From contig JAIUPD010000010.1 of assembly GCA_020161615.1 (NCBI GenBank), positions 124,001-188,000 of the forward strand: a stretch of DNA of 64,000 nucleotides, read 5' to 3'. The translations under genes were made by a program, and so were the position numbers. The DNA is from Pseudomonadota bacterium (GTDB lineage: Bacteria; Pseudomonadota; Alphaproteobacteria; Rhodobacterales; Rhodobacteraceae). The notes beneath the pieces are model-generated. The model was not told where the DNA came from. It searched no databases and was given only the letters and a program-made list of their open reading frames with translations. Positions 42,201 to 62,058 of the stretch are shown piece by piece (positions within the stretch are counted from its first letter, which is position 1; every line of letters starts with the position of its first letter).

Positions 42201-42902
42201 CTAGGATTTCCAGTCCAGCAGGGCGGGCGAGGCGATGGAGAGTGCCTTGTCCGACGGCTCCAACCCGCGCAGCATGACTTCGATCTGCGCAAACAGACGC
42301 CGCATGGCGCCCCGGATGTCGGGAATGTCAGCCCAGATGTAGTTGCGATAGGATTCGATGATCAACGCCTGCGCCATCGACGCCATCGACTCCGGGTCGA
42401 AACTTGCCCGCAGCTCGCCCGTCTCGCCTGCTTGCCTGAAGCGCTGCGCGATCGCGCCCGTTGTCCCGGAATAGATCTCGCGGAACCGGGTCGATTGCTC
42501 GGATCGGTCATAATTGTTCAGATGGCCCAAGGCCGCGCGCGCGATCACGAGGTCATCGGTCAGCCGGACCAGATGGTCCAGCGCGATGTTCATCAGATAC
42601 TCCATGATCGAGATATCGGCCTCGGCCAGTTCCTGCACGTCGCGGGTCGCGTCCTCCAACACGTCGTTGAACAGCATGAACAGCAGGTCCCGCTTCGAAT
42701 TGGCGAACAGGAACAGCGTGCCTTGGGCGACATCGGCCATATGGGCGATCTCGCGTACGGTGGTTTCCTCGAACCCCTTGGACATGAAGAGCGCGCGCGA
42801 GGCCTCGCGGATGCGACGCTGGCGATCCAGCTTGGCCTTTCCCGGACGCGCGGGTTCGGCGGCGGACCGCGACGAGGAACGATTGCGGGGCGTCTTGCTC
42901 AC
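42201..42902 (-). CDS. TetR family transcriptional regulator
   Basis: A 233-residue regulator. An Arg/Ser-rich tail of about 28 residues precedes the TetR HTH (RQRRIREASRALFMSKGFEETTVREIAHMADVAQGTLFLFANSKRDLL). The C-terminal domain is helical and of unknown ligand. GTG start. It lies 70 bases beyond the ABC ATPase on the same strand, so it is likely cotranscribed with the sugar importer. It is the best candidate to bind the TGAGC palindromes at 47214-47227 and 47328-47345, although TetR genes more often border their targets directly. Confidence 0.88.
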   Translation of the reverse strand: MSKTPRNRSSSRSAAEPARPGKAKLDRQRRIREASRALFMSKGFEETTVREIAHMADVAQGTLFLFANSKRDLLFMLFNDVLEDATRDVQELAEADISIMEYLMNIALDHLVRLTDDLVIARAALGHLNNYDRSEQSTRFREIYSGTTGAIAQRFRQAGETGELRASFDPESMASMAQALIIESYRNYIWADIPDIRGAMRRLFAQIEVMLRGLEPSDKALSIASPALLDWKS

Positions 42903-42972: not shown

Positions 42973-44148
42973 TCAGCGCAGGGCGGCACCATCGGATGCC
43001 CTGAAAAAATGCAGGCGGCGGGGATCGAGATGCAGCGCCACACCGGGGCCGTCGGGCACCGCGGTATCGATGCCCAGCCGGGCGATCAGGGGCGCGCGAT
43101 GGGCGGCCGCCACCATGCCGAGGTCGGTCAGGAAATCCGCATCCACCGGCTGCCCGCCGCCGGTCATTGGCGTGTCGGCGCCGATGGTCATGTGGACCAG
43201 TTTCTCGGGCGGCAGTTCTTCGATCATGCGCATCTCTGCCGCCAGGCCGGGCGTGCCGGGCGGCGCGAAGGACAGGTGCTCGGGCCGGATCCCGACCACG
43301 ATGCGGTGGCCGGACTCCGCCCGAAGGGCGGCGGGAAGCGGGGCGCCGGGATCGAGCCGCAGGACGGCGCCATCGGTCAGCAACTCGGGCCCGGTCTCGG
43401 TAAGCCGGAACTCGGCGCGGAACAGGTTCATCGCCGGCGAGCCGACGAAGGCCGCAACGAACAGGTTGGTCGGCTGTTCGTAAAGCTCGCGCGGTGTGCC
43501 GACCTGCTGCAGCAACCCGCCGCGAAGGATGGCGATGCGATGCCCCATCGTCATCGCCTCGGTCTGATCGTGGGTGACATAGAGCGTGGTCACGCCCTGC
43601 TGCTTCTGCAGGCCAATGATTTCGGCCCGCATCTGGTTGCGCAGCTTGGCGTCGAGGTTCGACAGCGGTTCGTCCATCAGGAAGATCTGCGGATCGCGGA
43701 CCAGCGCCCGGCCCATGGCCACCCGCTGCCGCTGCCCGCCGGACAGCGCCTTGGGCCGGCGATCCAGATATTCCGTCAGCCCCAGGGTCTGCGCGGCCGC
43801 GGCGACACGCCGCGCGATCTCGTCCTTCGAGGCGCCGCGGCTGGCGAGGGGGAAGGCGATGTTCTCGGCTACGGTCATATGCGGATAGAGCGCATAGTTC
43901 TGGAACACCATCGCCACGTCGCGGTCACGGGCAGAGAGGCCATTGACGACCTTGCCGCCGATACGCAATTCCCCCTCGGTGATCGGCTCCAGACCGGCGG
44001 TCATGCGCAGCGCCGTGCTCTTGCCGCAGCCCGAGGGGCCGACGACGACCATGAACTCGCCATCCTCGATGGTGAAACTGAGGTCGCGCACGGCGTAAGC
44101 GCCGTTACCATAGCGTTTGCCGACGCCGTCGAACTGAATGGTGGACAT
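42973..44148 (-). CDS. Sugar ABC transporter ATPase (UgpC/MsmK type)
   Basis: A 391-residue ATPase: Walker A GPSGCGKST, Q-loop FQNYALYPHMTVAENIAFPL, signature LSGGQRQR, Walker B IFLMDEPLSNLD, switch His in LYVTHDQTEAMTM. A C-terminal TOBE/OB regulatory domain (GIRPEHLSF near residue 290) is present, as in carbohydrate importers. Start chosen at the ATG giving MSTIQFDGVGKRYG. Works with the binding protein and two permeases upstream. Confidence 0.93.
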   Translation of the reverse strand: MSTIQFDGVGKRYGNGAYAVRDLSFTIEDGEFMVVVGPSGCGKSTALRMTAGLEPITEGELRIGGKVVNGLSARDRDVAMVFQNYALYPHMTVAENIAFPLASRGASKDEIARRVAAAAQTLGLTEYLDRRPKALSGGQRQRVAMGRALVRDPQIFLMDEPLSNLDAKLRNQMRAEIIGLQKQQGVTTLYVTHDQTEAMTMGHRIAILRGGLLQQVGTPRELYEQPTNLFVAAFVGSPAMNLFRAEFRLTETGPELLTDGAVLRLDPGAPLPAALRAESGHRIVVGIRPEHLSFAPPGTPGLAAEMRMIEELPPEKLVHMTIGADTPMTGGGQPVDADFLTDLGMVAAAHRAPLIARLGIDTAVPDGPGVALHLDPRRLHFFRASDGAALR

Positions 44149-44161
44149 GGTTCTGGTCGCT

Positions 44162-44995
44162 TTACTTGATGCCGCCCGTGAAGCCCTTGATGAGCTGTTT
44201 CTGGGCGAGGAGATAGAAGGCAAGGATCGGCACGACAGAGACGAAGACCGCCGCGAAGACGAGGTTCCAGCGGGCCGAGAATTCGCCGACGAAGCCATAG
44301 ACGGCGACGGGCAAGGTCTGGGCCGGGCTACCGGACAGAAAGATCAGCTGGATGAAGAAATCGTTCCACACGACCATGCCGACCATGACGGCAACGGTGC
44401 CGGTGACCGGGGCCAGCAACGGGAAGATCACCTTGAGGAAGATCCGGCCCCGGCTGGCGCCGTCGACTTCGGCGGCTTCCTCGTAATCGGCAGGCAGGGT
44501 GCGCACGAAGCCGGAGTACAGAAACACCGACATCGGCGTCATCAGCCCCGAATAAAGGACGATCAGGCCCAGTTGATTTCCGACAAGGCCGATCTGCCGC
44601 ATCACCGAATAGAGCGGCACGACCGACAGCTGGTGGGGCAGGATGATGCCGATGACGAAGAAGAAGAACAGAAGCGTCCCCATGCGCCGGCCGTTGCGGG
44701 CGATCACATAGGCGCTGGCCGAGCCGAGGGCGATCACCGCCACGACCGACCCTATGGTCACGATCAGGCTGTTGAGCATGGCCTGGCCCAGGCTCACCCC
44801 CATCGTGCCGCGCCAAGCCTCGGCATAATTGGCAAAGGCCAATTGGTCGGGAAAGCCCACGGGATCGGCAAAGATCTCGGACATGGGCTTCAGCGAGACG
44901 ATGGCGAGGTAATAGAAGGGTACACACCACAGCAGCGCCAGAGCGAGGGCGCCGAGTTCGCGGCCGAACGTGTTCAGGGCGGAGGGGCGGTTCAT
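44162..44995 (-). CDS. Sugar ABC transporter permease (MalG type)
   Basis: A 277-residue membrane protein with six segments and the EAA loop DYEEAAEVDGASRGRIFLKVIFPLLAPV. It ends AQKQLIKGFTGGIK, the typical end of MalG-like carbohydrate permeases. ATGA overlap with the preceding permease supports the start. Confidence 0.92.
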   Translation of the reverse strand: MNRPSALNTFGRELGALALALLWCVPFYYLAIVSLKPMSEIFADPVGFPDQLAFANYAEAWRGTMGVSLGQAMLNSLIVTIGSVVAVIALGSASAYVIARNGRRMGTLLFFFFVIGIILPHQLSVVPLYSVMRQIGLVGNQLGLIVLYSGLMTPMSVFLYSGFVRTLPADYEEAAEVDGASRGRIFLKVIFPLLAPVTGTVAVMVGMVVWNDFFIQLIFLSGSPAQTLPVAVYGFVGEFSARWNLVFAAVFVSVVPILAFYLLAQKQLIKGFTGGIK

Positions 44996-45867
44996 ATCCG
45001 GTCCTCCCGGGCACGCAGGACAAGCAGCTGGATCACCGAGACGACCAGCACCAGCGCGGTCAGCACCAGCGCGAAGGCGGCGCCATAACCGAAGCGGCCA
45101 AAGGCGAAGGTCTGTTTGAAGATCTGCGTGGCCAGGGTTTCGGTCGCGTAGCCGGGACCGCCGAAGGTCAGGGCGATCACCTGATCGAAGGTGCGCAAGC
45201 CGAAGATCGTCGGCAGGGCGATGGACACCGTCGCGGCGGGCGCCAGCAACGGGAAGGTGATCTTGCGAAAACGCCGCCAGGGCGAGGCCCCGTCGATCTC
45301 GGCAGCCTCGATCAGGTCGGTGGGGATACCCTGCAGCCCGGCAAGGTAGAAGGCCATGCACAGCCCCGAGAATTGCCAGACCATGACCACCAGGACCGAC
45401 CACAGGGCGGTGTCGGGATCGCCCAGCCAGACCCGGGTCGCGCCCTCGAGCCCCAAGGCCTCGAGCCCGGCATTCAGCGGACCGTTCACCGAGAAGATGA
45501 ACTTCCAGACATACGAGACGGCAAGCGGGCTCATCACCACCGGCGCGAAAAAGACCATGCGCAGGATGTTCTGGGCCCGCAGCGCGCCATTCAGCATCAG
45601 TGCCAGGCCAAGACCGATCAGATTGGACAGGGTGACATAGAAGAAGGTCAGCAGCAGCGTGTTGGTCAGCGCGGCCCGGGCCTCGGCACTGGTCAGCACC
45701 TGCCGGAAATTGGCCAGCCCCACGAAATTCGGCGTGCTCAGCCCGTCCCAATCGGTGAAGGCGTACCAGCCTCCGGCGACGAAAGCCCCGTAATGGAACA
45801 GCAGCATGATGACGATGGCGGGGGCCGCCCAGGCGAGCGGCGCACGGGCCGCGGTCGGAGAGTACAT
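44992..45867 (-). CDS. Sugar ABC transporter permease (MalF type)
   Basis: A 291-residue membrane protein with about six segments (LAWAAPAIVIMLLFHYGAFVAGGWYAFTDWDGL first) and the EAA loop DLIEAAEIDGASPWRRFRKITFPLLAPA. Start at the ATG giving MYSPTAARAPLAW; the open frame upstream runs into the binding-protein gene antiframe and is not needed. It pairs with the MalG-type subunit. Confidence 0.9.
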   Translation of the reverse strand: MYSPTAARAPLAWAAPAIVIMLLFHYGAFVAGGWYAFTDWDGLSTPNFVGLANFRQVLTSAEARAALTNTLLLTFFYVTLSNLIGLGLALMLNGALRAQNILRMVFFAPVVMSPLAVSYVWKFIFSVNGPLNAGLEALGLEGATRVWLGDPDTALWSVLVVMVWQFSGLCMAFYLAGLQGIPTDLIEAAEIDGASPWRRFRKITFPLLAPAATVSIALPTIFGLRTFDQVIALTFGGPGYATETLATQIFKQTFAFGRFGYGAAFALVLTALVLVVSVIQLLVLRAREDRI

Positions 45868-45893
45868 CAGCGGATCTTTCGGCTGCCGACAGG

Positions 45894-45945
45894 GCGCGGC
45901 GCCCACCGGACCGGTCCCAGGCCGGGGCCGGGGCGAGCGCCGCGC
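45894..45945 (-). promoter_or_regulatory. Intercistronic hairpin between binding protein and permease genes
   Basis: GCGCGGCGC (45894-45902) and GCGCCGCGC (45937-45945) are perfect 9-bp complements around a 34-base GC-rich loop in the 82-base gap after the binding-protein stop. Confidence 0.45.
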
Positions 45946-45949
45946 AGGA

Positions 45950-47191
45950 TCATTCCCCGGCGTCCCAGGCGGCATCGAGCGCCGCCAGAACCTCGTCGAT
46001 CGTGGCCTGCCCGGTGACGATCTGGGTGGCGCCGCGGCTGAGGGTATCCAGGACTTCCAGCCGCGTCCACCCGGTGTGGGGCAGTCCGACGATTTCGCCC
46101 GCGCTGTAATAGGGCGCAAGGCGCTCGATCATCGCGGGAAAGGTGCCCTCGGCGACATCGGCCCGCGCGGTTCCGCCGGCGATGGCGGTGAAGGCGCGCT
46201 GCTGCTCGGGCTCGGCCAGCCAGTCGATAAAGCCGAGCGCCGCGTCGAGATTGGGCGATCCCGCCGCGACCGACAGGGCGTCATTGTAGAACCCCAGCGC
46301 CACGGTGTTCTCGCCCGAGGGCCAGGGGCCGACGGCCAGCGACAGGGTCGGGTTCATCCGCAGCACGGCACCGGCGAGCGTGACCGGACCCACGTTGGTC
46401 GCCCCCTGTTCACCGGCCATCGCGGCGAAAAGGTCGGGCACGCTGGCCGCTTCGAAACCGCGCTGGAAGCAGCCCTCCTCGGCCATGCGGGCAAAGGTGG
46501 CGAAGGTCTCGGCCCAGCCCGGGGTCGTGGCGAAACTGACCTCGCCTGCGCGGCGGCGGGCGTTCCAGTCCGGCGTCTCGGCATAGACCTTCGCGGCGGC
46601 GATGGTCTCAACGATGTAATAGGGGAAGGCCCCCGAGGCCGACGAGAAGCTGACGCCCTGCCCGGCCGCAGTGGCGCAGGCGGCGAAGAAGTCCTCTTCG
46701 GTTTCGGGATAGGCGATGCCCAGCCGTTCCATCATCGCGGTGTTGTGGATCAGCCCGACCGAGGTCAGCGACAGCGGCAAGCCATAGAGCGCTTCGCCGT
46801 CATAATAGACGTCGCGCGCGCTCTCGGGGAAGTCGGCCACCCAGGCACCGGCGGACAGGTCGGCAAGATGCCCCGCCTGCGCCAGCGGCATCAGCGATTC
46901 CAGCCGTCCGTAACCCGCGTTGGTATAGATCAGGTCGGGGGCCGCGCCGGACTGGATCTGCGTGACCACCGCCTGCCCATAGCTGTCGCCCGAGGGGAAT
47001 TTCTGCACCGTGAAGGTCACGCCTCCGGTTTCGGCGGCATAGGTCTGGGCCAGCTGTTCCAGTGCGTCGCCCACGGCGCTGGCGGGCGCCACAAGCCGCA
47101 GGGTCACATCCTGCGCGAGGGCGGGCAGCGCTGTCGAGGCGATCAGAAGGGCCGCGCCGGAAAGGCGCAGGGCAAGGCTGTCGGAACGCAT
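45950..47191 (-). CDS. Sugar ABC transporter substrate-binding protein
   Basis: A 413-residue family 1 extracellular binding protein. Signal peptide RSDSLALRLSGAALLIASTALPALA is cleaved before QD. Later landmarks are SGAAPDLIYTNAGYG, YDGEALYGLPLSLTSVGLIHN and GPWPSGENTVALGFYNDALSVAAGSPN. The ATG at 47191 is chosen because AGAGAGG is 7 bases upstream and the longer frame would translate through the promoter and operator. Head of the importer operon. The adjacent deglycosylation genes suggest a glycoside ligand. Confidence 0.92.
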   Translation of the reverse strand: MRSDSLALRLSGAALLIASTALPALAQDVTLRLVAPASAVGDALEQLAQTYAAETGGVTFTVQKFPSGDSYGQAVVTQIQSGAAPDLIYTNAGYGRLESLMPLAQAGHLADLSAGAWVADFPESARDVYYDGEALYGLPLSLTSVGLIHNTAMMERLGIAYPETEEDFFAACATAAGQGVSFSSASGAFPYYIVETIAAAKVYAETPDWNARRRAGEVSFATTPGWAETFATFARMAEEGCFQRGFEAASVPDLFAAMAGEQGATNVGPVTLAGAVLRMNPTLSLAVGPWPSGENTVALGFYNDALSVAAGSPNLDAALGFIDWLAEPEQQRAFTAIAGGTARADVAEGTFPAMIERLAPYYSAGEIVGLPHTGWTRLEVLDTLSRGATQIVTGQATIDEVLAALDAAWDAGE

Positions 47192-47213: not shown

Positions 47214-47227
47214 ATGAGCGTACTCAT
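47214..47227. promoter_or_regulatory. Operator-like dyad ATGAGCGTACTCAT before the importer operon
   Basis: Arms ATGAG and CTCAT are perfect. It lies about 23 bases before the binding-protein start and just after the predicted minus-strand transcription start. Related to the palindrome at 47328-47345. Confidence 0.55.
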
Positions 47228-47327: not shown

Positions 47328-47345
47328 AAATGAGCATGCTCATTT
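47328..47345. promoter_or_regulatory. Perfect 18-bp palindrome AAATGAGCATGCTCATTT
   Basis: All 18 positions are symmetric. It lies 7 bases upstream of a TTGACA box for the plus-strand deglycosidase genes and shares TGAGC/CTCA arms with 47214-47227. Confidence 0.65.
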
Positions 47346-47435: not shown

Positions 47436-47813
47436 ATGTTGTCGGACCTGCTGATCGAGCCAGACTCGCTTGTGGCCACGACCACCGGGCTCTCCCTGGG
47501 CCTCCGCCTGCCGTGGTACCAATCCCTCCCGCTGTCGACGGTGCGACTCAGCGAGGTCGCTGTTGATGGCACCCCACTCTCGCCGGCCGGGCTGTCCTTC
47601 ACGCTGAACGGCCAGACACGCCCCCTGACCGTGATGCCCGGTCTGACGGGCGAATACTGGTTCGTGACGGATACCCTGCACCTGCATCTGCCGCTCTCCG
47701 GGCCAAGGCGGGGCACCGACTATCTGTGCCGCCTGCGCCTTCAGCTGTTTCCGCCCTATGCCGAAACGCTGCGCCGCGACAATGTCGGCGCGCTGAGGAT
47801 GCGCGCCCGATGA
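47436..47813 (+). CDS. DUF6379 protein, C-glycoside deglycosidase beta-subunit-like
   Basis: A 125-residue beta-rich protein: VRLSEVAVDGTPLSPAGLSFTLNGQ, then YWFVTDTLHLHLPLSG, then YLCRLRLQLFPPYAE. This pattern fits the small DUF6379 family, whose characterised members are the small subunit of C-glycoside deglycosidases (CarB/DgpB type), recalled from the literature. ATG at 47436 preferred over an upstream TTG because it gives the family's usual length; AGGGAA lies 11 bases before it. It overlaps the TIM-barrel gene by ATGA, the expected partner subunit. Confidence 0.75.
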   Translation: MLSDLLIEPDSLVATTTGLSLGLRLPWYQSLPLSTVRLSEVAVDGTPLSPAGLSFTLNGQTRPLTVMPGLTGEYWFVTDTLHLHLPLSGPRRGTDYLCRLRLQLFPPYAETLRRDNVGALRMRAR

Positions 47814-48832
47814 GCGGGGGGCACGCCATCCGGCTGGGCGTCTCGCTCTACAGCTTCACCAACGAATTTCTTGGCCGCAGCCACGACCTGCCGGCCCTGC
47901 TGCGCGAAACCGCAGCGCGCGGTCTGGGGCCGGGGGTCGAGGCCGTGGGGTTCCAGAGCTTTCGCAGTTTCCCCGATGTCACCGAGGCCGAGGCCGGCGC
48001 CTTTCGCGATGCCCTGGCCGAAGCCGGGCTGCGGCCGACCTGTCTGGGGATCACGGCCGATCGCTTCCTTCAGCCGGGGCAAGCGATTGCGGATTCCGAG
48101 CTGATCGAGTTCCACGCCCGGCAGATGCGTTCGGCCCACCGGCTGGGCTTTCCACTTGTCCGCTTTCAACATGCCGCGACCCCGGCCGTCATCCGCGCGC
48201 TGGTGCCGCTGGCTGAATCGTTGGAGCTTCGGATGGGACTGGAAGTGCATGCGCCGCTGTTCCTCGACCATCCGGTGATCCTGGCCTACCGCGAGATGTT
48301 CGAGGCCGTCGGCAGCCCGTTGCTGGGGTTCATCCCCGATTTCGGTGCCGCGGCCCGTGCGGTGCCCGAGGTTCAGACCGCCTATTTCCGCGACGTATTG
48401 GGCGCGCCCTCACGCGCCGTCGATCGGGCCCTTTTCCTGTGGCATGACGACAACTTGCAGCCGCTCGACCGGTTGACCGACTTCGCCGCGTTCTGCGCCG
48501 CCGAGGGCATCGACGACCGCTTTCGGGACGAGATCGCCTTGATCTTCGGCATCATCGGCCGCGGCGATCCCGCCCGCTGGTCCGAGATCATGCCGCAGGT
48601 CTTCCACCTGCATGCGAAATTCTACGACTGCGATCCGCAAGACGGGTCCGATCCGGCCATCGATACCGCGGCCAATCTGGCGCCCTTCCTGGCGGCAGGA
48701 TGGCAGGGCGACCTGTCCAGCGAATGGGAGGGGCATGTGACCTCCCGCGGGGACGGGTTTGCGATGGTCGAGGCACAGCAACGATACCTTGCTACTCTTT
48801 TGAACCCCCCGGCCCGCAAGGCAGAGGTCTGA
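47810..48832 (+). CDS. Xylose-isomerase-like TIM-barrel protein, likely C-glycoside deglycosidase alpha subunit
   Basis: A 340-residue protein of the sugar phosphate isomerase/epimerase fold. It begins IRLGVSLYSFTNEF, with candidate metal ligands in GLEVHAP (Glu), GFIPDFG (Asp), HLHAKFYD (His) and SSEWEG (Glu). The order Glu-Asp-His-Glu is that of the metal site in this fold. Coupling to the DUF6379 gene by ATGA supports the two-subunit deglycosidase model, in which a 3-keto-C-glycoside is split to aglycone and keto sugar. If that model is wrong, it is a keto-sugar isomerase. Confidence 0.78.
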   Translation: MSGGHAIRLGVSLYSFTNEFLGRSHDLPALLRETAARGLGPGVEAVGFQSFRSFPDVTEAEAGAFRDALAEAGLRPTCLGITADRFLQPGQAIADSELIEFHARQMRSAHRLGFPLVRFQHAATPAVIRALVPLAESLELRMGLEVHAPLFLDHPVILAYREMFEAVGSPLLGFIPDFGAAARAVPEVQTAYFRDVLGAPSRAVDRALFLWHDDNLQPLDRLTDFAAFCAAEGIDDRFRDEIALIFGIIGRGDPARWSEIMPQVFHLHAKFYDCDPQDGSDPAIDTAANLAPFLAAGWQGDLSSEWEGHVTSRGDGFAMVEAQQRYLATLLNPPARKAEV

Positions 48833-48833
48833 C

Positions 48834-50450
48834 ATGACCGAATTCGACTACATCATCGTCGGCGCAGGCTCATCGGGCTGCGTTCTGGCCAACAGATTGA
48901 GCGAGGATCCCCGCCTGCGTGTGCTTCTGCTGGAAGCGGGCGGGGCAAACCGGCACCCGTTCATCGCCATGCCGGCAGGTTTCATGAAGCTCGCCGGCGA
49001 TCCGCGCTATTACTGGAAGTTCCCGGTTCGCGACCAGCTCGACCGCGGGCCCGAGACGTGGACCTATGGACGCGGCCTTGGCGGGTCCAGCGCGGTGAAC
49101 GGCATGTGGTATCTTCGGGGGATGCCGCGCGACTACGATGGCTGGCAGGCGATGGGGCTTGCGGAATGGAGCTGGGCCAGCATGGCCCCCCATTTCACCT
49201 GGATGGAAAGCTACCTCGAACCCGGGGCGGACCCGAGCCGGGGACGCACGGGCCCCTTGCAGATCACGCGCTCACGCTATCGCTCACCGGTCACGGCCGC
49301 CACCATCGAGGCCGCCAGGGACCTGGGCCTGCCCGAGCTTGAGGACATCAATACCCCGAACGCCGAGGGCATCGGCTGGACCCAACACACGATTGACCGC
49401 AAGGGTCGCCGGGCCTCGGCCCACGCTGCCTTCATCAAGCCACTCAGGCGTCCCAACCTGGTGGTGCGCACCGGCGCGCCGGTTGCCCGCATCCTGATGC
49501 GCGACGGCCGGGCGACGAGCGTCGAAATCGTCACGCCGCAGGGCCGCGAGACGATCTCTGCGCGGGGCGAGGTGATCCTGTCGGCCGGCGTCTATCAGTC
49601 GCCGAAGCTCTTGCAGCTTTCGGGGATCGGCCCCGCCGCGCTGCTGACCCGCCACGGTATCGAAGTGCGTCGCGATCTGCCCGCCGTCGGCCAGAACCTG
49701 AGCGATCACCAGATGGTCGCGCTGACCTATGATCTGAAGAACGACCCCGGCCTCAACCGCGAATACACCGGCTGGCGCCTCTATCGGAACGCGCTGACCT
49801 ACTTTGCCGGACAGCAAGGTTTGCTGGCGCGGGTCGGGGTGCCGCTGACCGTCCTACAATCCTCGGACGGCGAAAGCGACTGGCCCGACATGCAGCTGGG
49901 GATCGGGCCGTTCGCCATGCGCTCGACCCGCGAACGCAAGCTGGAGCCGGGGCGCGGCCCGATCACCGCCGATCCAGGGATCATGTTTGCGGGCTTTCAC
50001 CTGCGGCCGCGCAGCCGGGGCTCTGTGGCCATCGCCTCGGCCGATCCGATGGCGATGCCCGAGGTTGATGCCGGTTGGTGGCGCGACGAATTCGACCGGC
50101 GGAAGGCGGTCGAACTGGTCCGGCTGCTGCGCCGCTTCGCCGCTGCCCCGGCGCTGTCCCGCTACGTCGGGAACGAGCGGATTCCGGGTTCCGGCGTGCA
50201 GACCGACGCGGCCATCATCGACGAGCTGACGTGGATGATGAGCCCCGGCTTGCACGGCACCGGCACCTGCGCCATGGGCACCGATCCCGCGACCTCGGTT
50301 ACCGATGGGCGCTGCCGGGTGCACGGGGTGACGGGCCTGCGCGTCGTGGATTGTTCCGCCATGCCGACGACCGTCTCGGGGAATACCAATGGCCCCGCGA
50401 TGGCCTTCGGCGCACGCGCGGCCGACCTGATCCTCGCGGATCGCCAATAG
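48834..50450 (+). CDS. GMC family FAD-dependent oxidoreductase
   Basis: A 538-residue flavoprotein with FAD motif GAGSSG (10-15), EAGG, GRGLGGSSAVNGMWYLRG near residue 77-95, and the C-terminal catalytic region LHGTGTCAMG (His) and SGNTNGPAMAFG (Asn). It is choline-dehydrogenase-like in layout rather than clearly pyranose-oxidase-like. One base separates it from the deglycosidase gene. In C-glycoside breakdown a FAD enzyme first oxidises the sugar to a keto form, and this gene is well placed for that step (inference). Confidence 0.9.
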   Translation: MTEFDYIIVGAGSSGCVLANRLSEDPRLRVLLLEAGGANRHPFIAMPAGFMKLAGDPRYYWKFPVRDQLDRGPETWTYGRGLGGSSAVNGMWYLRGMPRDYDGWQAMGLAEWSWASMAPHFTWMESYLEPGADPSRGRTGPLQITRSRYRSPVTAATIEAARDLGLPELEDINTPNAEGIGWTQHTIDRKGRRASAHAAFIKPLRRPNLVVRTGAPVARILMRDGRATSVEIVTPQGRETISARGEVILSAGVYQSPKLLQLSGIGPAALLTRHGIEVRRDLPAVGQNLSDHQMVALTYDLKNDPGLNREYTGWRLYRNALTYFAGQQGLLARVGVPLTVLQSSDGESDWPDMQLGIGPFAMRSTRERKLEPGRGPITADPGIMFAGFHLRPRSRGSVAIASADPMAMPEVDAGWWRDEFDRRKAVELVRLLRRFAAAPALSRYVGNERIPGSGVQTDAAIIDELTWMMSPGLHGTGTCAMGTDPATSVTDGRCRVHGVTGLRVVDCSAMPTTVSGNTNGPAMAFGARAADLILADRQ

Positions 50451-50504: not shown

Positions 50505-51257
50505 TCAGAGCGCCGTTACGCGACGGACCTGTTCCAGGGTCTGGCGCAATTCGGCCTCGACAGTATCGCGCATCTGCAGGAAGCGGGGCGTCGGCACGGG
50601 AACGGAAATCGCGTGGATCTCGCCGTTCCGGTCGCGGAAGGCCCCGCCAAGGGCCGAAATGCCGTTCGTGTGCTCGTTGGCATCCTCGGCGATGCCTCGC
50701 TCGCGCACCTTGCCCAGCATCGCGGCGAAGGCGGACCAGTCGCCGGGCTGGCGCGCCCGTTTCCACTCTGCCTCGACCAGGGCGCGGGCCTCGGCTTCTG
50801 GCAGAAGTGCCAGCGCGGCGCGGCCATTCGCGCTGGTGGTCAGGGGAAAGACATCGCCCACGGCCGAGACGGTCCTGAGCCGGTGCGTTCCCGGGACCTG
50901 ATCGAGGAAGATCATCCCTGCCCCGCGCAGCACTGACAGATCCGCCGTCTCGCCCAGGCGCCGGGACAGTTCCGACAGATGCAGACGGCATTCCTCGACC
51001 ACGTTGTAGCGCGTGGCCTCGGAAAGCGCCGTGATCTCGGGGCCAAGGCGGATGGATCCACCGGACGAGGTGGCAATGACCAGCCGCTCGGCCTGAAGGG
51101 CGCCCACGATGCGCTGGACCGTCGAGCGGGGCAGGTCAACGCGTTCGGCAATCTGGCCGAGGCTCATCCCCTCGGTATTGTCGCGCAGGACGCGCAGGAT
51201 GGCAGCCGCGCGCGCGATCACCTGAATGCCCGAGCGCCCCTCGTCCTTGTCCACCAT
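50505..51257 (-). CDS. IclR family transcriptional regulator
   Basis: A 250-residue protein: HTH VIARAAAILRVLRDNTEGMSLGQIAERVDLPRSTVQRIVGALQAERLV and effector domain LSELSRRLGETADLSVLRGAGMIFLDQV... to the C-terminal GAFRDRNGEIHAISVPVP. The second of two close ATGs (51257) is chosen because GAGGGG is 6 bases before it. Divergent from the cyclase-headed operon across 180 bases and therefore its likely regulator. An ACAAG/CTTGT dyad at 51321-51341 is a weak operator candidate. Confidence 0.9.
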   Translation of the reverse strand: MVDKDEGRSGIQVIARAAAILRVLRDNTEGMSLGQIAERVDLPRSTVQRIVGALQAERLVIATSSGGSIRLGPEITALSEATRYNVVEECRLHLSELSRRLGETADLSVLRGAGMIFLDQVPGTHRLRTVSAVGDVFPLTTSANGRAALALLPEAEARALVEAEWKRARQPGDWSAFAAMLGKVRERGIAEDANEHTNGISALGGAFRDRNGEIHAISVPVPTPRFLQMRDTVEAELRQTLEQVRRVTAL

Positions 51258-51437
51258 GCCCATCCCCTCGTCTCTGCCCGCCCAGCAATACAGCAGAAAC
51301 TAGATGATCTGCAATGCGATACAAGTGTCCCAGAATCTTGTTGACGCGGCGCGACTCGCATGTGTACCGTAATTCGAACCGAACGCACCATATTGCGGTG
51401 CAGCATCGGCGACACGCATCGGGAGGGAGGAGCCGAG

Positions 51438-52274
51438 ATGGTCAAGGTTCGCGGCATCGAGTTCGAGGGGAACCTCGACAACAGCATGGGTCTGGAATTC
51501 TACAACCTGAGCCACCGCTTCGGTTTCCAGAACCCGAACTGGCCGTATTTCGAGGATACGAAGATCGAGCGTATCCATTACATGGCGAAGTCGGGCGTGC
51601 TGTCGCAGCGCATCACCACGACGATGCACGCCACCACCCATATCGACGCGCCGGCGCATGTGGTGCAGGGCACGCCCTTCATCGACGAAGTGCCTCTGCC
51701 GCATTTCTTCGGCTCGGGCATCGTCGTGTCGATGCCGAAGAAGAAATGGGAGCCGATCACCTATGACGATCTGGAGGCCGCCTGCGGCAAGTCGATCCGC
51801 AAGGGCGACGTGCTGATCATCAACACCGGCTGGCACAAGCGCTACGAGGACGGCGATTATTTCGCCTATTGCCCGGGCTTCGTGAAATCGGCCGGCGAAT
51901 GGATGGTCGAGAAAGGGGTGAAGGTGGTGGGCCATGACACGCAGGCCAACGACCACCCGCTGGCGACCGCGATCGGGCCGCAGCGCAATGGCCCGCTGCT
52001 GCCGCACCTCGCCGAGGAATACAAGGAATGGTCCGGCGGCGTGGACTGGAAAGACGCCTTCCCGGAATGGGAGCCGGTGCACAACATCCTGTTCAGGAAC
52101 GGGATCATGGGCATCGAGAATGTCGGCGGCGATCTGGATGCCGTGACCGGCAAACGCTGCACCTTCGCCTTCTTCCCGTGGAACTGGGATCGCGGTGACG
52201 GCTGCATCGTCCGCCTCGTGGCGATGATCGACAAGAGCCAGAACTTCCGCATCGAGCGCGGCGACGCGATCTGA
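51438..52274 (+). CDS. Cyclase family (kynurenine-formamidase-like) metal-dependent hydrolase
   Basis: A 278-residue protein with the metal motif H-A-T-T-H-I-D-A-P-A-H (TTMHATTHIDAPAHV), the family's HxxxHxDxPxH. Further landmarks are DVLIINTGWHKRY, GVKVVGHDTQANDHP and NVGGDL. The family hydrolyses amides, lactones or cyclic ketones (formamidase, isatin hydrolase and relatives). GGGAGGAGC before the ATG. First gene of the operon that later encodes a PhlG-like hydrolase and a beta-keto acid cleavage enzyme, so it may open a cyclic intermediate (inference). Confidence 0.88.
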   Translation: MVKVRGIEFEGNLDNSMGLEFYNLSHRFGFQNPNWPYFEDTKIERIHYMAKSGVLSQRITTTMHATTHIDAPAHVVQGTPFIDEVPLPHFFGSGIVVSMPKKKWEPITYDDLEAACGKSIRKGDVLIINTGWHKRYEDGDYFAYCPGFVKSAGEWMVEKGVKVVGHDTQANDHPLATAIGPQRNGPLLPHLAEEYKEWSGGVDWKDAFPEWEPVHNILFRNGIMGIENVGGDLDAVTGKRCTFAFFPWNWDRGDGCIVRLVAMIDKSQNFRIERGDAI

Positions 52275-52282
52275 TCCGGGAA

Positions 52283-52329
52283 CCGGGGGCTTCGCGCCCC
52301 CCGGACCCCCTGCGGCGTATTTTCCGCAG
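52283..52329 (+). promoter_or_regulatory. Double intercistronic hairpin, Rhodobacterales-like style
   Basis: CCGGGGG (52283-52289) pairs with CCCCCGG (52298-52304), and CTGCGG (52310-52315) pairs with CCGCAG (52324-52329) around CGTATTTT. Such paired GC hairpins with a GTATTTT loop are, from memory, common between Rhodobacterales genes. Confidence 0.5.
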
Positions 52330-52362
52330 AATGAAACACAGCCGGAAGGGGAGGTCTGGCCG

Positions 52363-52716
52363 ATGTTGATCAAGCGTTTTCAGGAGGCCCGGCCCTATGA
52401 GGCGCCCAACCATTGGGGCGTCTCGGGCCTGCGCCTGCAGGGCTTCGAGGAGGGCGGGCCGACAAACCAGTGGATCGGCTACAGCCAGTTCCTGCCGGGG
52501 GGGGGCGCGGGGCCGGATTCGACGCCCTTCGAGAAGGTCTATGTCGTGCTGGCCGGGGAAATGACGCTGGAATGGGACGGCAACACCGCCGTCCTCGGCC
52601 CCTTGGACAGCTGCACCATCCCCCCGGGACAGGATCGGCGCATCGAGAACCGCTCGAACCATGTCTGCAAGATGCTGGTCGTCATCCCCTATCCGCCCAA
52701 GCCGAAAAGCGAGTGA
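52363..52716 (+). CDS. Small cupin protein
   Basis: A 117-residue single-cupin protein: TPFEKVYVVLAGEMTLEWDGNTAVLGPLDSCTIPPGQDRRIENRSNHVCKMLVVIPYP. The first motif lacks the usual HxH (it reads GAGPDSTPFEKVY), so a metal site is doubtful. GGAAGGGGAGG upstream. It lies between the cyclase and SDR genes and may bind or isomerise a pathway intermediate. Confidence 0.8.
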   Translation: MLIKRFQEARPYEAPNHWGVSGLRLQGFEEGGPTNQWIGYSQFLPGGGAGPDSTPFEKVYVVLAGEMTLEWDGNTAVLGPLDSCTIPPGQDRRIENRSNHVCKMLVVIPYPPKPKSE

Positions 52717-52720
52717 GGCC

Positions 52721-53515
52721 ATGAGCCTGATGAATCCCCTGTCGATGTTCGACGTGAAGGGCAAGGTCGCGGTGATCACCGGCGCCTCGGGCGCCTTCGG
52801 CATGGTCGCGGCGCGCGTGCTGGCGGGCGCCGGCTGCCGGCTGGTGCTGGCGGCGGGCAATGCGCGCGCGCTGACCGAGATCGCCGGGGAATGCCGCGCC
52901 GGCGGCGCCGCGGTGCATGAGGCGAATGTCCGCCCGGATACCGAAGCGGCCTGCGAGGGGCTTATCGCCTCGGCGGTTGAGGCCTTCGGGTCCTGCGACA
53001 TCCTCGTCGTCGCCTCGGGCATGAACAAGGTCGCCAAGATCGACGAAATGGCGCCCGACACCTTCCTGTCGGTGATGGACGCCAATGTCACGCAAAGCTG
53101 GCTGATGGCCCGCGCCGCCACGAAGCAGATGAAAGCGCAGGGCACGGGCGGCAAGATCGTGCTGGTGTCTTCCGCCCGGGGGCTTCTGGGCCATCCGGCG
53201 GGGTACACCGCCTATTGCGCCTCGAAAGCGGCAGTCGACGGGATCACCAAGGCTCTGGGCTGCGAGCTGGGCCCGACCGGGATTACGGTGAATGCCATCG
53301 CGCCCACCGTCTTCCGCTCGCCCCTCACCGCTTGGATGTTCGGGGACGACGACAACGCCAAGGCCGTTCGCGGCGGGTTCCTCGCCCGGGTGCCGAAGGG
53401 CCGGTTGGGCGAACCCGAGGATCTGGCGGGGCCGCTGCTGTTCCTGTCGTCGAAGGCGTCGGATTTCTATACCGGGCATATCCTCTATGCCGACGGCGGC
53501 TACACGGCGGGCTGA
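52721..53515 (+). CDS. Short-chain dehydrogenase/reductase
   Basis: A 264-residue SDR with cofactor motif TGASGAFG, Ser in VLVSSARG and Tyr-x3-Lys in AYCASKAA. The NNAG position reads VASG (LVVASGMNK), an atypical structural motif. Four bases after the cupin stop. It probably interconverts a hydroxyl and a ketone in the beta-diketone-like pathway proposed for this operon. Confidence 0.9.
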   Translation: MSLMNPLSMFDVKGKVAVITGASGAFGMVAARVLAGAGCRLVLAAGNARALTEIAGECRAGGAAVHEANVRPDTEAACEGLIASAVEAFGSCDILVVASGMNKVAKIDEMAPDTFLSVMDANVTQSWLMARAATKQMKAQGTGGKIVLVSSARGLLGHPAGYTAYCASKAAVDGITKALGCELGPTGITVNAIAPTVFRSPLTAWMFGDDDNAKAVRGGFLARVPKGRLGEPEDLAGPLLFLSSKASDFYTGHILYADGGYTAG

Positions 53516-53518
53516 TCC

Positions 53519-54445
53519 ATGACGCAGGACCGTCTCATCGGGGTGATCGGCGCGGGGCTCATGGGTCACGGCATCGCCCTGGTCATGGCGCGCGCCGGGC
53601 TGCGCGTCGCCATCACCGATCCCATGGCCGAGGCGCGGGCCGCTCTGCCCGCCCGCGTGCGCGAGTCGATGGTCCTCATGGGCCACGATGACGCCGCCAT
53701 TGCCGCCACCCTGTCGCGGATCGCGGTGCATGAGACGCTGGCCGCGACCGTCGCGCAAGCGCATGCGGTCTTCGAGGCCGCGCCCGAGAAGATGGCGCTG
53801 AAACAGGCGATCTTCGCCGAGATCGAGGCCGCCGCACCGCACGACTGCATCCTTGCCTCGAACACTTCGGTCATGCCGATCACCGAGATTATGCAGGGGC
53901 TTACACACAAGGATCGCGCGCTGGGGACCCATTGGTGGAACCCGCCGCACATGATTCCGCTGGTCGAGGTCATCCGCACCCAATGGACCGCCGAGCCCGC
54001 GGTGGCCGCGATGATGGCGCTGCTGGCCGAGGCCGGGAAGACGCCCGTCCGCGTCGACAAGGACGTGCCGGGCTTCATCGGCAACCGCTTGCAACATGCG
54101 CTCTGGCGCGAGGCGATCAGTCTGGTCGAGCGCGGGATCTGCGACGCGGAATCCGTGGATACCGTGGTGAAATCCTGCTTCGGGCGCCGGCTGTCGGTGC
54201 TGGGTCCTTTGGAAAACGCCGATCTGGTGGGCACCGACCTCACGCTCGCCATCCATGAGACGGTCATTGCCGACCTCGAGAACCGCCCGGGCCCCTCGCC
54301 TTATCTTCAGCAACTGGTCGCCGACGGCAAGCTCGGCATGAAGGCGGGCGCGGGGTTCCGCACCTGGACTGCGGAAGAGGCCGCCAAGGTCCGCAATCGG
54401 GTCACCACGCATCTGAGGAAACTGGACACGATTCTGGACGACTGA
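53519..54445 (+). CDS. 3-hydroxyacyl-CoA dehydrogenase family protein (possible beta-hydroxy acid dehydrogenase)
   Basis: A 308-residue protein with NAD motif GAGLMG (11-16), SNTS, the catalytic-type His in GTHWWNPPHMIPLVEV and VPGFIGNRLQHALWREA. The length fits the short members of the family, which include carnitine dehydrogenase and lambda-crystallin/gulonate dehydrogenase that act on free beta-hydroxy acids. With a beta-keto acid cleavage enzyme in the same operon, oxidation of a free beta-hydroxy acid to a beta-keto acid is a good guess. No enoyl-CoA hydratase is nearby. Confidence 0.9.
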   Translation: MTQDRLIGVIGAGLMGHGIALVMARAGLRVAITDPMAEARAALPARVRESMVLMGHDDAAIAATLSRIAVHETLAATVAQAHAVFEAAPEKMALKQAIFAEIEAAAPHDCILASNTSVMPITEIMQGLTHKDRALGTHWWNPPHMIPLVEVIRTQWTAEPAVAAMMALLAEAGKTPVRVDKDVPGFIGNRLQHALWREAISLVERGICDAESVDTVVKSCFGRRLSVLGPLENADLVGTDLTLAIHETVIADLENRPGPSPYLQQLVADGKLGMKAGAGFRTWTAEEAAKVRNRVTTHLRKLDTILDD

Positions 54446-54478
54446 GGCTTTCGACAACTCGCATGGGGAGGACGAGAC

Positions 54479-55729
54479 GTGAAGAGACTGAACCGCCGAA
54501 GATTCCTGGGAACCACCGGCGCGGCGCTGGCTGTTCCGGCCCTGTTGCCGCGCGGGTTGAAGGCCGCCGAAGGCCCGATCCGCGTCGGGCTGGTGACGCC
54601 CACGACCGGGCCGCTTGCCTTCTTCGCCGCGCCCGACGACTTCGTGCTGGCGCAATTCGCCGAGGTGCTGGCACAGGGCGCGAACGGCCGCCCGATCGAG
54701 ATCATCGTCAAGGACAGCCAATCCTCGGCCAACCGCGCGGCCGAGGTGGCGTCCGAGCTGATCCTGCGCGACGAAGTTGCGCTGATCCTGTCGGCTGGCG
54801 GACCGGACACCGTGAACCCGGTGGCCGATCAATGCGAACTCAATGGCGTGCCGAGCCTGTCCACCGCCTGCCCGTGGCAGCCCTTCGTGATGGGGCGCGG
54901 GTCCAATCCGGCGCAGGGTTTCGAGATGACCTACCTCTTCGCCTTCGGGCTTGAGGACGTGATCGGCGCCTATCTGAAGCTCTGGGAAGGGGTCGAGACG
55001 AACCGCAAGGTCGGGCTGCTCTTGGCCAATGACGCCGACGGCAACGCCTGGGGCGACGCGCAATTCGGCTTCCCGCCGGCGCTGGCCCAAGCGGGCTACG
55101 AGGTCGTCGATCCCGGCCGCTACACCCCGATGAGCGACGATTTCAGCGCGATCATCGGCCAGTTCCAATCGGCCGGCGTCGATATCGTGATGGGCACAAT
55201 GATCCCGCCCGAATTCCTGACCTACTGGACGCAATCTCACCAGCAGGGGCTGCAGCCCAAGGTCACGACCATCGGCAAGAGCCTGCTCCTGCCCAATGTC
55301 CTGGAAGCCGCCGGTGCCAGCGGCGAGGGGCTGTCGTGCGAATTGGGCTGGCATCCAGCCTTCCCCTTCACCTCGGCCTCGACCGGGCAGAGTGCGGCGC
55401 AGATCGCCGAGGCCTGTCAGGCGGCGACCGGCCGGCCCTGGGTGCAGACGCTGGGGCTGAAACATGCGTTGCTGGATCTCGCCGTCGATGTGCTGAAACG
55501 CGCGTCGGACCCCGAGGATGCTGACAGTATCCTCGCCGCGATCCGCGAGACGCAGTGCGAGACCACACTGGGTGTCGCGGACTGGAGCGCGTCGCCGATT
55601 GCCAATGTCGCCAAGTCGGCAATGATGGGCGGCCAGTGGCACCTTGGCCCTGACGGCTGGACCATCGACATCGCCGCCAACCCGACCGATTTGCCGGTGC
55701 CTGTCACCCGTCCGATGGAAGCGATGTGA
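54479..55729 (+). CDS. Branched-chain-amino-acid-type ABC binding protein, Tat-exported (copy A)
   Basis: A 416-residue periplasmic protein. The N-terminus LNRRRFLGTTGAALAVPALLP carries a twin-arginine signal. The body starts IRVGLVTPTTGPLAFF and contains DSQSSANRAAEVASELIL, typical of LivJ/amide-binding-like proteins. Start is GTG, with GGGGAGGACGAGAC before it, almost identical to the leader of copy B at 56433. About half the residues appear shared with copy B, so the two arose by duplication. Confidence 0.9.
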   Translation: MKRLNRRRFLGTTGAALAVPALLPRGLKAAEGPIRVGLVTPTTGPLAFFAAPDDFVLAQFAEVLAQGANGRPIEIIVKDSQSSANRAAEVASELILRDEVALILSAGGPDTVNPVADQCELNGVPSLSTACPWQPFVMGRGSNPAQGFEMTYLFAFGLEDVIGAYLKLWEGVETNRKVGLLLANDADGNAWGDAQFGFPPALAQAGYEVVDPGRYTPMSDDFSAIIGQFQSAGVDIVMGTMIPPEFLTYWTQSHQQGLQPKVTTIGKSLLLPNVLEAAGASGEGLSCELGWHPAFPFTSASTGQSAAQIAEACQAATGRPWVQTLGLKHALLDLAVDVLKRASDPEDADSILAAIRETQCETTLGVADWSASPIANVAKSAMMGGQWHLGPDGWTIDIAANPTDLPVPVTRPMEAM

Positions 55730-55741
55730 GGGAGATCGCCG

Positions 55742-56404
55742 ATGCGCTTTGAAGACCGTAACGAGATGCTCAAACCCGGCTATCTGCCGCTGGAATCGGG
55801 CATCATCCGCTATGACGACGGCTCGGTGACCATCGCGGCCCTGACCCGGATGCCGCATTGCCGCGCCAAGATGGTGCATTGGTGGTTCGGCTGGCTGGGT
55901 GGCACCGACCAGTACAAGCTGTGGCACCCCGTCGACCATATTTTCAGCGACTGGGAAGACCGGGGCAACGCCGGCAATTATTACGGCGCGAAGCATCTGG
56001 TCCATGAGACGCTGGGCGGCGGTGGCGCGGTGCACAAGCTCCGCATCCATTTCCGCGACCCGCACGAGGTATTCGACGCCGCCCGCTACGATCAGGTCGA
56101 CGGCCATGCGATCTGCGCCCGTCCGGGCAGCCTGGAGCGTCCGATCAACCTGGGGCACATGACGCATTTCGTGCGCAACACCGATTATGGTTGCGAGATG
56201 CGCACAAGGTTCTGGCTGGGCGATGTGCACCATCAGGACCTGGCGACCAAGTTGCCCGACGAGGTGGTGCAGGGGATCCGCCGCGAGGCGCTGACCGATG
56301 ATTTCTGCACCCGGCTGCACCGCCATGCCATCGAAGAAATGGGCTATCTGGCCGATCTCCTGCCGGTTCTGTACCGGCAGGTCACGCAGGACGCGAGCTT
56401 CTGA
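55742..56404 (+). CDS. PhlG-like (DAPG hydrolase family) C-C bond hydrolase
   Basis: A 220-residue protein with the family block MVHWWFGWLGG (44-54) and YKLWHPVDH (58-66), E89 in HETL, and H195-x3-E199 near the C-terminus. The last pair matches the H-x3-E zinc ligands of 2,4-diacetylphloroglucinol hydrolase PhlG. PhlG splits an acyl group from an acylphloroglucinol by retro-Claisen hydrolysis. It is shorter than PhlG (about 290 residues), lacking mainly N-terminal sequence. Located between two paralogous binding-protein genes, it likely acts on the imported compound. Confidence 0.82.
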   Translation: MRFEDRNEMLKPGYLPLESGIIRYDDGSVTIAALTRMPHCRAKMVHWWFGWLGGTDQYKLWHPVDHIFSDWEDRGNAGNYYGAKHLVHETLGGGGAVHKLRIHFRDPHEVFDAARYDQVDGHAICARPGSLERPINLGHMTHFVRNTDYGCEMRTRFWLGDVHHQDLATKLPDEVVQGIRREALTDDFCTRLHRHAIEEMGYLADLLPVLYRQVTQDASF

Positions 56405-56432
56405 ACATTCTCGAACTGGGGAGGACGAGACG

Positions 56433-57701: not shown

Positions 57702-57709
57702 ACGTGAGG

Positions 57710-57734
57710 GGGGCCGTCGACTGGCGACGGCCCC
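57710..57734 (+). promoter_or_regulatory. Intercistronic hairpin after binding protein B
   Basis: GGGGCCGTCG (57710-57719) pairs perfectly with CGACGGCCCC (57725-57734) around ACTGG. No U-run. Confidence 0.55.
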
Positions 57735-57752
57735 GAACCTGCGGGAGAGACC

Positions 57753-58481
57753 ATGCCTCCGATCCTTGAACTTCAGGGCGTGAAGAAGGCTTTCGGCGCC
57801 GTCGTGGTGGCGGACGACCAAACGTGGTCGCTTGCCCCCGGCGAGGCGTTGGGGGTGCTGGGTCCGAACGGCGCCGGCAAGACCTCGATGTTCAACCTCG
57901 TGACCGGCACCTTGTCGGCGGATGCGGGGTCCATCCGTCTGGACGGGCAGGACATCACCGGCTGGTCGGCGGCGAAGCGGTGCCGCGCTGGGATCGCCCG
58001 CAGCTTTCAGGTGCCGCAGCCCTTCGCGCATATGACGGTGTTCGAGAACGCCTATGTCGCCGCGACGCAGGGCGCGAGTCTTTCCGGTCGCGCCGCCGAG
58101 GCCCTGTGCCTCGATGTACTCGATCGCACCGGGCTCGTCGCCAAGTCGAACGCGCAGGCGGGCGGGCTGACGCTTCTGGAACGCAAGCGGCTGGAGCTGA
58201 GCCGTGCGCTCTGCGCAAAACCGCGCGTGATCCTGCTCGATGAAATCGCCGGCGGCCTCACGGAACACGAATGCCAGTCGCTGATCCAGACCATCCGCGA
58301 CGTGCATGCGACCGGCGTGTCGATCGTCTGGATCGAGCATGTCGTCCACGCGCTTCTGGCCGTGGTCAGCCGGCTGATGGTCATCGATTTCGGCCGCAAG
58401 ATCGCCGAGGGCGAGCCCCAGGCGATCATGCAATCGCGCGAGGTGAAGGAAATCTATCTGGGGATCGAAGCCGATGCCTGA
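57753..58481 (+). CDS. Branched-chain-amino-acid-type ABC ATPase (LivG-like)
   Basis: A 242-residue ATPase: Walker A GPNGAGKTS, VPQPFAHMTVFENAYVAA in the Q-loop region, a degenerate signature LTLLERKRLELSRAL as usual in LivG proteins, Walker B VILLDEIAGGL, and switch His in IVWIEHVVHAL. It pairs with the LivF-like ATPase, which overlaps its end by 8 bases. Confidence 0.92.
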   Translation: MPPILELQGVKKAFGAVVVADDQTWSLAPGEALGVLGPNGAGKTSMFNLVTGTLSADAGSIRLDGQDITGWSAAKRCRAGIARSFQVPQPFAHMTVFENAYVAATQGASLSGRAAEALCLDVLDRTGLVAKSNAQAGGLTLLERKRLELSRALCAKPRVILLDEIAGGLTEHECQSLIQTIRDVHATGVSIVWIEHVVHALLAVVSRLMVIDFGRKIAEGEPQAIMQSREVKEIYLGIEADA

Positions 58482-59178: not shown

Positions 59179-59181
59179 CGC

Positions 59182-61058: not shown

Positions 61059-61059
61059 A

Positions 61060-61992: not shown

Positions 61993-62058
61993 CCGGCCTC
62001 ACGCCCCAGAGGATAAGTGCGAGGCGGCGCCCTGCCCCTTCGCAAGGAGCAGCCGACA

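Follow-up and report, generated by a model that had tools for sequence, protein, structure and literature searches.

C-glycosides resist hydrolysis, and to our knowledge only a few enzymes are known for the first step of their breakdown. The closest described systems of soil Actinomycetota, CarA with CarBC and PurA with PurBC, and the CarA-type system of Deinococcus unite an FAD enzyme of the GMC superfamily with an α-β C-glycoside deglycosidase (CGD); that of gut Bacillota, DgpA with DgpBC, likewise proceeds in two steps, oxidation and elimination, and possesses a homologous α-β CGD. Here we describe a three-gene cassette of a Rhodobacteraceae bacterium (Pseudomonadota; GenBank assembly GCA_020161615.1) in which the genes for a predicted CGD are followed by that of a GMC flavoprotein of a different lineage. 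The cassette is located in a stretch of 64,000 nucleotides (contig JAIUPD010000010.1, positions 124,001 to 188,000), which we refer to as the window. We consider it probable that it serves the catabolism of glycosides by oxidation and β-elimination, with the GMC protein as the C3 oxidant and the CGD as the cutting enzyme.

It is the oxidant that sets the cassette apart from the described systems. The GMC protein of the window falls outside the pyranose oxidase/C-glycoside oxidase group of CarA and PurA. DgpA belongs to the Gfo/Idh/MocA enzymes and depends on NAD (PMC11239390; PMC12724307), whereas the oxidoreductase linked to the CGD in the window is a flavoprotein and thus no member of this NAD-type Rossmann family. 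The Agrobacterium system (GlycDH, AtOGE, AtHYD and a Gfo protein) resembles the present one in its FAD-containing GMC enzyme and in the hydratase homologues that occur both near the new GMC lineage and in our host; GlycDH oxidizes O- and C-glucosides at C3, while AtOGE has no sequence relationship to CGDs (PMC10628242). The GlycDH of GIN611 was co-expressed with a small subunit that is a putative TAT protein (PMC4650693), whereas no Gluconate_2-dh3 gene was found in the window cassette. CGD pairs as such are known to be widespread (PMC8563793), and the published phylum-wise counts of PurABC and DgpABC homologues cover Pseudomonadota as well (PMC12724307). In the open-access literature, a scope that leaves many subscription papers outside, we found neither a GMC protein outside the pyranose oxidase and GlycDH groups that had been linked to a CGD, nor a paper containing the word DUF6379.

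The cassette consists of the following genes:

47436..47813, + strand: CGD β subunit (DUF6379 / PF19906), 125 amino acids, predicted from Pfam, a PDB match and AlphaFold fold matches
47810..48832, + strand: CGD α subunit, a TIM barrel of 340 amino acids, predicted from a PDB match and active-site residues
48834..50450, + strand: GMC flavoprotein of the CGD-linked lineage, 538 amino acids, proposed glycoside C3-oxidoreductase (Pfam/NCBIfam, tree, context counts and motif count)

The β gene starts with the ATG at 47436 and its stop codon ends at 47813, so that it overlaps in an ATGA with the α gene (ATG at 47810). The α reading frame ends with the TGA at 48830-48832 and, after a gap of one base, the GMC gene extends from its ATG at 48834 to a stop at 50450. 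This is the arrangement of a small DUF6379 protein, a TIM-barrel protein and a GMC protein that an initial annotation of the DNA had proposed. Third-position GC contents of 0.79-0.84 in all three frames are high, as in the adjoining long frames. The layout is not a product of chance, because the β-α-GMC order together with an importer is found again in Mesobacterium (L019) and Neorhizobium (L020).

Judged by sequence comparison and structural modelling, the regions 47436-47813 and 47810-48832 encode the β and α subunits of a C-glycoside deglycosidase. The β protein matches PF19906 (CGDB) with 39.7 bits, above the Pfam cut-off of 27.6, and in a phmmer search against the PDB it matches AgCarC2 (7dnm_B; E 2.3e-8). 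Its AlphaFold model, built from 18 aligned sequences, has a mean predicted local distance difference test (pLDDT) value of 88.3 and a predicted template modelling (TM) score of 0.82. All 17 PDB fold matches of this model at E≤0.001 are CGD chains (query TM 0.70-0.84), namely 15 β chains and two chains of the 435-amino-acid CGD from Microbacterium testaceum, so that the small protein is predicted to fold like DgpB and its relatives; the outcome that would have refuted the initial annotation, a small protein without this fold, did not come about. The identity as a CGD β subunit therefore stands; the label CarB that had been attached to the small subunit does not, since of the two Car subunits it is CarC that is small (β), CarB being the large (α) one (PMC8563793).

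The nearest structure of the α protein is AgCarB2 (7dnm_A; E 1.8e-53, again by phmmer against the PDB), while its score of 24.7 bits against PF01261 (AP_endonuc_2) lies below the cut-off of 31.1; NCBIfam gave no match for either subunit. AgCGD2 binds its metal through E147, D179, H269, K271 and E305, and mutating the equivalents of its residues H149 and E307 in PuCGD and MiCGD lowered activity (PMC8563793). The window's α subunit has retained every one of these seven residues, the five ligands as E145, D177, H268, K270 and E305 and the two catalytic residues as H147 and E307, and they are invariant across the nine α sequences aligned.

Two variations in the architecture of CGDs were observed along the way. 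A single frame of 492 amino acids in Arthrobacter sp. StoSoilB13 (L012, 11515-12993) matches both β and α and is likely a natural fusion; the solved 435-amino-acid CGD chain 8qrz likewise matches both subunits. Moreover, in 26 of 78 CGD loci on genome contigs (e.g. L021, L024, L029, L042) two or more α frames with at least 200 bits are present, often with β frames alongside and a few kb apart, perhaps for different glycosides.

The third gene product exceeds the Pfam cut-offs for PF00732 and PF05199. NCBIfam places it among choline-dehydrogenase-like proteins, below the cut-offs of these models (NF002550: 445 bits, cut-off 605). The protein belongs to the same broad GMC group as the choline dehydrogenase BetA, but the assignment as BetA itself was rejected: its score with the BetA model TIGR01810 (366.5 bits) is half of the cut-off (732.1), and a true BetA is encoded elsewhere in the host (L097; 782.2 bits). 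Names are of little guidance in this superfamily, since several seed sequences of the pyranose/C-glycoside oxidase group are annotated as choline dehydrogenase (PMC10807413).

Membership in the pyranose oxidase group of CarA, PurA and G3Ox is ruled out by the PDB search, by sequence identity and by phylogeny. In the PDB the GMC protein finds its best match, at 318 bits, in a chloramphenicol-inactivating oxidoreductase; the matches listed (60 of 68) include neither a pyranose oxidase nor a G3Ox, and the protein scores 33 bits with TIGR02462 against a cut-off of 544.9. The GMC protein of the CGD cluster of Deinococcus aetherius, on the other hand, reaches 1018, 447 and 441 bits with 8qve, 7dve and 7qf8, respectively. 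To this CarA-type protein the window GMC is 23% identical, compared with 55% to the GMC protein beside the CGD genes of Novosphingobium aromaticivorans. The nearest folds of its model (pLDDT 85.4) are alcohol and choline oxidases, without a pyranose oxidase among the 50 fold matches listed. In a phmmer comparison with a G3DH-like homologue (not GlycDH itself) it obtained 29 bits, and in the tree it lies outside that clade.

This tree comprises 41 hand-picked GMC proteins, with over-long frames trimmed at the N-terminus. The lineage found beside CGD genes forms one clade of 23 of the 41 rows (support 97/93) with three main branches, whose order is left open by the tree. It stands apart from five host paralogues, from five outgroup GMC proteins and from the CarA-type and G3DH-like groups, the latter two being removed from it by branches of 1.1-2.2 changes per column; a sixth host paralogue (L103) is fructose-dehydrogenase-like. 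The active-site pair H474/N517 is equivalent to the His/Asn pair that is essential in PsG3Ox (H440/N484; PMC10646112) but is not diagnostic, since it is kept in 19 of 19 aligned GMC proteins, BetA and other paralogues included. Two short motifs do mark the lineage: of its 57 frames, 50 contain both and the other seven one of them, while none of 39 other GMC frames contains either, counts to be read with the provisos that the motif pair was devised on members of the counted set and that repeat fetches of one gene were counted on both sides. By these comparisons the GMC protein belongs to a lineage separate from CarA, PurA and G3Ox, and the best reading is that the first step of the pathway would be carried out by this different lineage of enzymes, as had been surmised from its choline-dehydrogenase-like sequence.

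Members of this GMC clade are nearly always found together with CGD genes, and the association is strong. Within the host's own family, the lineage (E≤1e-120) and PF19906 each occur in 2 of 295 genomes, and these are the same two. A sample of the class contains the lineage (E≤1e-150) in 2 of 385 genomes and a CGD α gene in 3, with both GMC carriers possessing the latter. Another family (f51, 82 genomes) harbors the lineage at six places in five genomes (53-56% identity; the next match has 46%) and CGD α in 11 genomes, among them all five GMC carriers (one-sided Fisher test 1.7e-5, for genomes that are not independent). Eleven of 72,556 plasmid records have a GMC protein at E≤1e-120; all nine with at least 54% identity possess a CGD α gene at a distance of 0.5-5.6 kb, and the remaining two (49% and 46% identity) have none nearby.

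The 78 genome-contig loci already mentioned were collected with a query (A2) whose five sequences all adjoin this GMC lineage; the counts in the own family (295), in f51 (82) and in the plasmids (72,556) are independent of it. The lineage is present in 40 of the 78 loci, a proportion biased upward by the choice of query, as compared with none for CarA-type GMC proteins, 17 for G3DH-like GMC proteins and 26 for Gfo proteins of at least 300 bits. In 17 of the 40 loci it is the sole one of these four types of oxidant in the examined flank, and 23 of the 78 have none of the four in a flank that in some cases ends at the end of the contig.

The gene neighborhoods also contain candidates for the subsequent step of the pathway. 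In many of these loci a TIM-barrel protein is encoded beside a Gfo protein, and that of Novosphingobium sp. P6W (L127) matches the 2-hydroxy-3-keto-glucal hydratase 8ro4 over its whole length (606.9 bits). To judge from its name, the solved hydratase is presumably of the AtHYD kind, for which preliminary evidence of such an activity has been presented (PMC10628242); the activity would act on the product of the CGD. The host itself encodes a homologue (537.9 bits to 8ro4) on another contig (C3), beside a Gfo protein and in a run of genes that includes LacI-type regulators and an ABC ATPase and permease. Neither a match to PF06439 nor a CarA-type GMC protein was detected in the host, where the latter search gave three stray matches, none above 23 bits.

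One branch of the GMC clade is represented by two loci (L123 and L124) that have no CGD gene in the flank but do possess a hydratase homologue, accompanied in L123 by a Gfo protein. A CGD α gene is present on another contig of the L123 genome and on another plasmid of Novosphingobium resinovorum, the source of L124. The five outgroup GMC loci (L118-L121, L125) gave no match to CGD, hydratase or Gfo proteins. Since the branch lacking a linked CGD keeps the hydratase homologue and the outgroup loci have none, this context, seen in just two loci, points to an oxidation of the sugar rather than of the aglycone by the GMC enzyme.

Adjacent to the cassette, and divergent from it, lies a gene cluster for an ABC importer (42973-47191, - strand); the sugar importer that the initial annotation had mentioned proved to be a complete set:

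45950..47191 (start at 47191 inferred), - strand: solute-binding protein (PF01547) with a signal-like N-terminal stretch
44992..45867 (start inferred), - strand: permease 1 (PF00528), 291 amino acids
44162..44995 (start inferred), - strand: permease 2 (PF00528), 277 amino acids
42973..44148 (start inferred), - strand: ATPase of the MalK/UgpC type (PF00005, PF17912), 391 amino acids

The ATPase scores just below the cut-off of NCBIfam model NF008653 (428.7 bits; cut-off 432). A search of the 72,556 plasmid records with the binding protein gave two homologues at E≤1e-25, from Deinococcus aetherius (L014; 34%) and Arthrobacter sp. StoSoilB13 (L012; 31%). Both are encoded in CGD clusters with a CarA-type GMC protein that shares the active-site His/Asn pair, while in the cassettes of Mesobacterium and Neorhizobium the new GMC type is accompanied by homologues of the binding protein (713 and 323 bits). 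That importer and deglycosidase stay homologous as the lineage of the GMC protein changes is the strongest argument that this protein takes the place of CarA. The argument reaches only part of the clade, since the sphingomonad loci that have this GMC yielded no homologue of the window's binding protein.

From these findings the following course of events can be envisioned. The linked ABC importer would take up an aryl glycoside, probably a C-linked one, whose sugar 3-OH group the GMC enzyme would oxidize to yield a 3-keto-glycoside, with H474, by homology, acting as the base and N517 assisting. In the α-β CGD, a divalent metal would be held by E145, D177, H268, K270 and E305; by homology with AgCGD2 and PuCGD, H147 would remove the C2 proton, the aglycone would be eliminated, and 2-hydroxy-3-keto-glucal would be formed. 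The hydratase and the Gfo/Idh/MocA reductase encoded on contig C3 could then give back glucose. Placing the oxidation at C3, like choosing a C- rather than an O-glycoside as the substrate, is an inference, and so is the part given to the contig C3 hydratase.

A broader proposal can be built on this scheme: the GMC lineage, distinct from the CarA/PurA-type and G3DH-like enzymes and unrelated to DgpA, would be the dedicated C3-oxidoreductase of alphaproteobacterial CGD pathways, would have replaced the CarA-type oxidase in the importer-linked cassettes, and would serve, in one of its three branches, a hydratase route without a linked CGD. We regard the chances of this proposal as evenly balanced. 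Several observations weigh against the scheme itself. The counts were made by record and are not independent, and most carriers are sphingomonads. Of the loci with this GMC, none but those of the window, Mesobacterium and Neorhizobium has the importer alongside. Of the 78 loci, 27 possess a hydratase homologue of at least 300 bits, and 18 of these belong to the 40 that have the GMC lineage, so that the hydratase is a companion of CGD loci generally; in the host it is encoded outside the cassette. A Gfo/Idh/MocA protein (at least 300 bits) or a G3DH-like GMC protein is additionally present in the examined flank of 23 of the 40 loci, and another enzyme could therefore make the 3-keto sugar there. 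The host possesses, unlinked to the cassette, a Gluconate_2-dh3/GMC/cytochrome c unit and five Gfo/Idh/MocA proteins above the cut-off. Finally, the nearest solved structures of the GMC protein are alcohol and choline oxidases and the chloramphenicol-inactivating oxidoreductase.

The alternative that survives best leaves the mechanism unchanged and concerns the substrate: the cassette might act mainly on O-glycosides, or on both types, its natural substrate being an aryl O-glucoside. PuCGE had comparable specific activities toward 3-keto-phlorizin, an O-glucoside, and the C-glucoside 3-keto-nothofagin (PMC10628242), so that cleavage of C- and O-glycosides cannot be told apart, and some related clusters contain GH1 or GH43 hydrolases alongside the CGD and this GMC. 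The cassette itself, however, has no hydrolase, and AgCGD2, the closest solved relative of its α subunit, accepted a C8-glycoside (PMC8563793); we view a mainly O-glycosidic role as possible but rather doubtful.

It appears unlikely that the GMC enzyme acts on the aglycone or on some other alcohol and leaves the C3 oxidation to an unlinked enzyme, for instance the three-subunit dehydrogenase on contig C6 or a Gfo/Idh/MocA protein. The kinship of the GMC protein with alcohol and choline oxidases and the chloramphenicol-inactivating enzyme speaks for such a division of labor, as do the alternative oxidants in the host and in the flanks of the 23 relatives. Yet the GMC protein is the only oxidoreductase within the cassette in the window, in Mesobacterium and in Neorhizobium; the nearest others are an aldehyde dehydrogenase directly after the GMC gene in Neorhizobium and a short-chain dehydrogenase/reductase (SDR) 2.2 kb further in the window. 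Furthermore, retention of a hydratase homologue of the 3-keto pathway by members without a linked CGD would be unexpected for an aglycone enzyme. A sugar isomerase/epimerase operon without a link to deglycosylation, suggested by the faint resemblance of the α subunit to a xylose-isomerase-like Pfam domain, is highly improbable in view of the identity and fold of β, the complete active site, and the CGDs that are the best PDB matches of both subunits.

If glycoside oxidation at C3 by the GMC enzyme holds true, a further GMC lineage would widen the set of catalysts for this reaction and would offer a clue to the way in which C-glycosides could be used by many sphingomonads and by some rhodobacteria and rhizobia. 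A GMC protein of this clade beside DUF6379 would provide a clear marker for finding such pathways, and an exchange of the oxidant with retention of importer and deglycosidase can be put directly to the test.

Cassette and importer are flanked by genes for regulators, and the divergent promoter region contains two copies of a dyad:

42201-42902, - strand: TetR-type regulator, after the importer
50505-51263, - strand: IclR-type regulator, after the GMC gene
47214..47227, + strand: dyad ATGAG-N4-CTCAT, candidate operator
47330..47343, + strand: second copy of the dyad, a perfect palindrome

The two dyads are 116 bases apart (start to start) and represent two of five such sites in the genome. As a conserved operator the dyad was rejected, with no match within one mismatch in the Mesobacterium or Neorhizobium locus.

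The genes further downstream (51360-63750) encode a cyclase-family protein, a cupin, the SDR, a 3-hydroxyacyl-CoA dehydrogenase, two periplasmic binding proteins, an ABC importer and a BKACE enzyme, and the run ends with an XylR/DmpR-like sigma-54 activator on the opposite strand; it looks like a separate pathway for aromatic-acid catabolism. Two of its genes were considered as parts of the system. The cyclase-family gene (51360-52274) was rejected as a conserved aglycone module because its product reaches only 25-53 bits with the cyclase-family proteins from nine further loci and shows no match to that of L055, while nine of these ten have 181-211 bits in common with the tenth, from D. aetherius. 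The gene at 55742-56404, in a run with a branched-chain-type ABC importer, encodes a C-C hydrolase of the DAPG-hydrolase/phloretin-hydrolase family (PF18089; 63 bits to phloretin hydrolase, 45 to PhlG). The C-glucoside nothofagin has phloretin as its aglycone (PMC10628242), which made this gene an attractive candidate, but it is present in no other locus examined and was likewise set aside.

Upstream of the importer, a gene of the RPE65/carotenoid-oxygenase family is located at 39812-41326; N. aromaticivorans also has an RPE65-family gene (L010, 7711-9165) near its CGD-side GMC gene, but the two proteins share no more than 136 bits. On contig C6 of the host (L115, 14445-18326), consecutive genes for a Gluconate_2-dh3 subunit, a fructose-dehydrogenase-like GMC protein and a cytochrome c encode a three-subunit dehydrogenase of the sugar type, about 8 kb away from a pair of Gfo/Idh/MocA genes.

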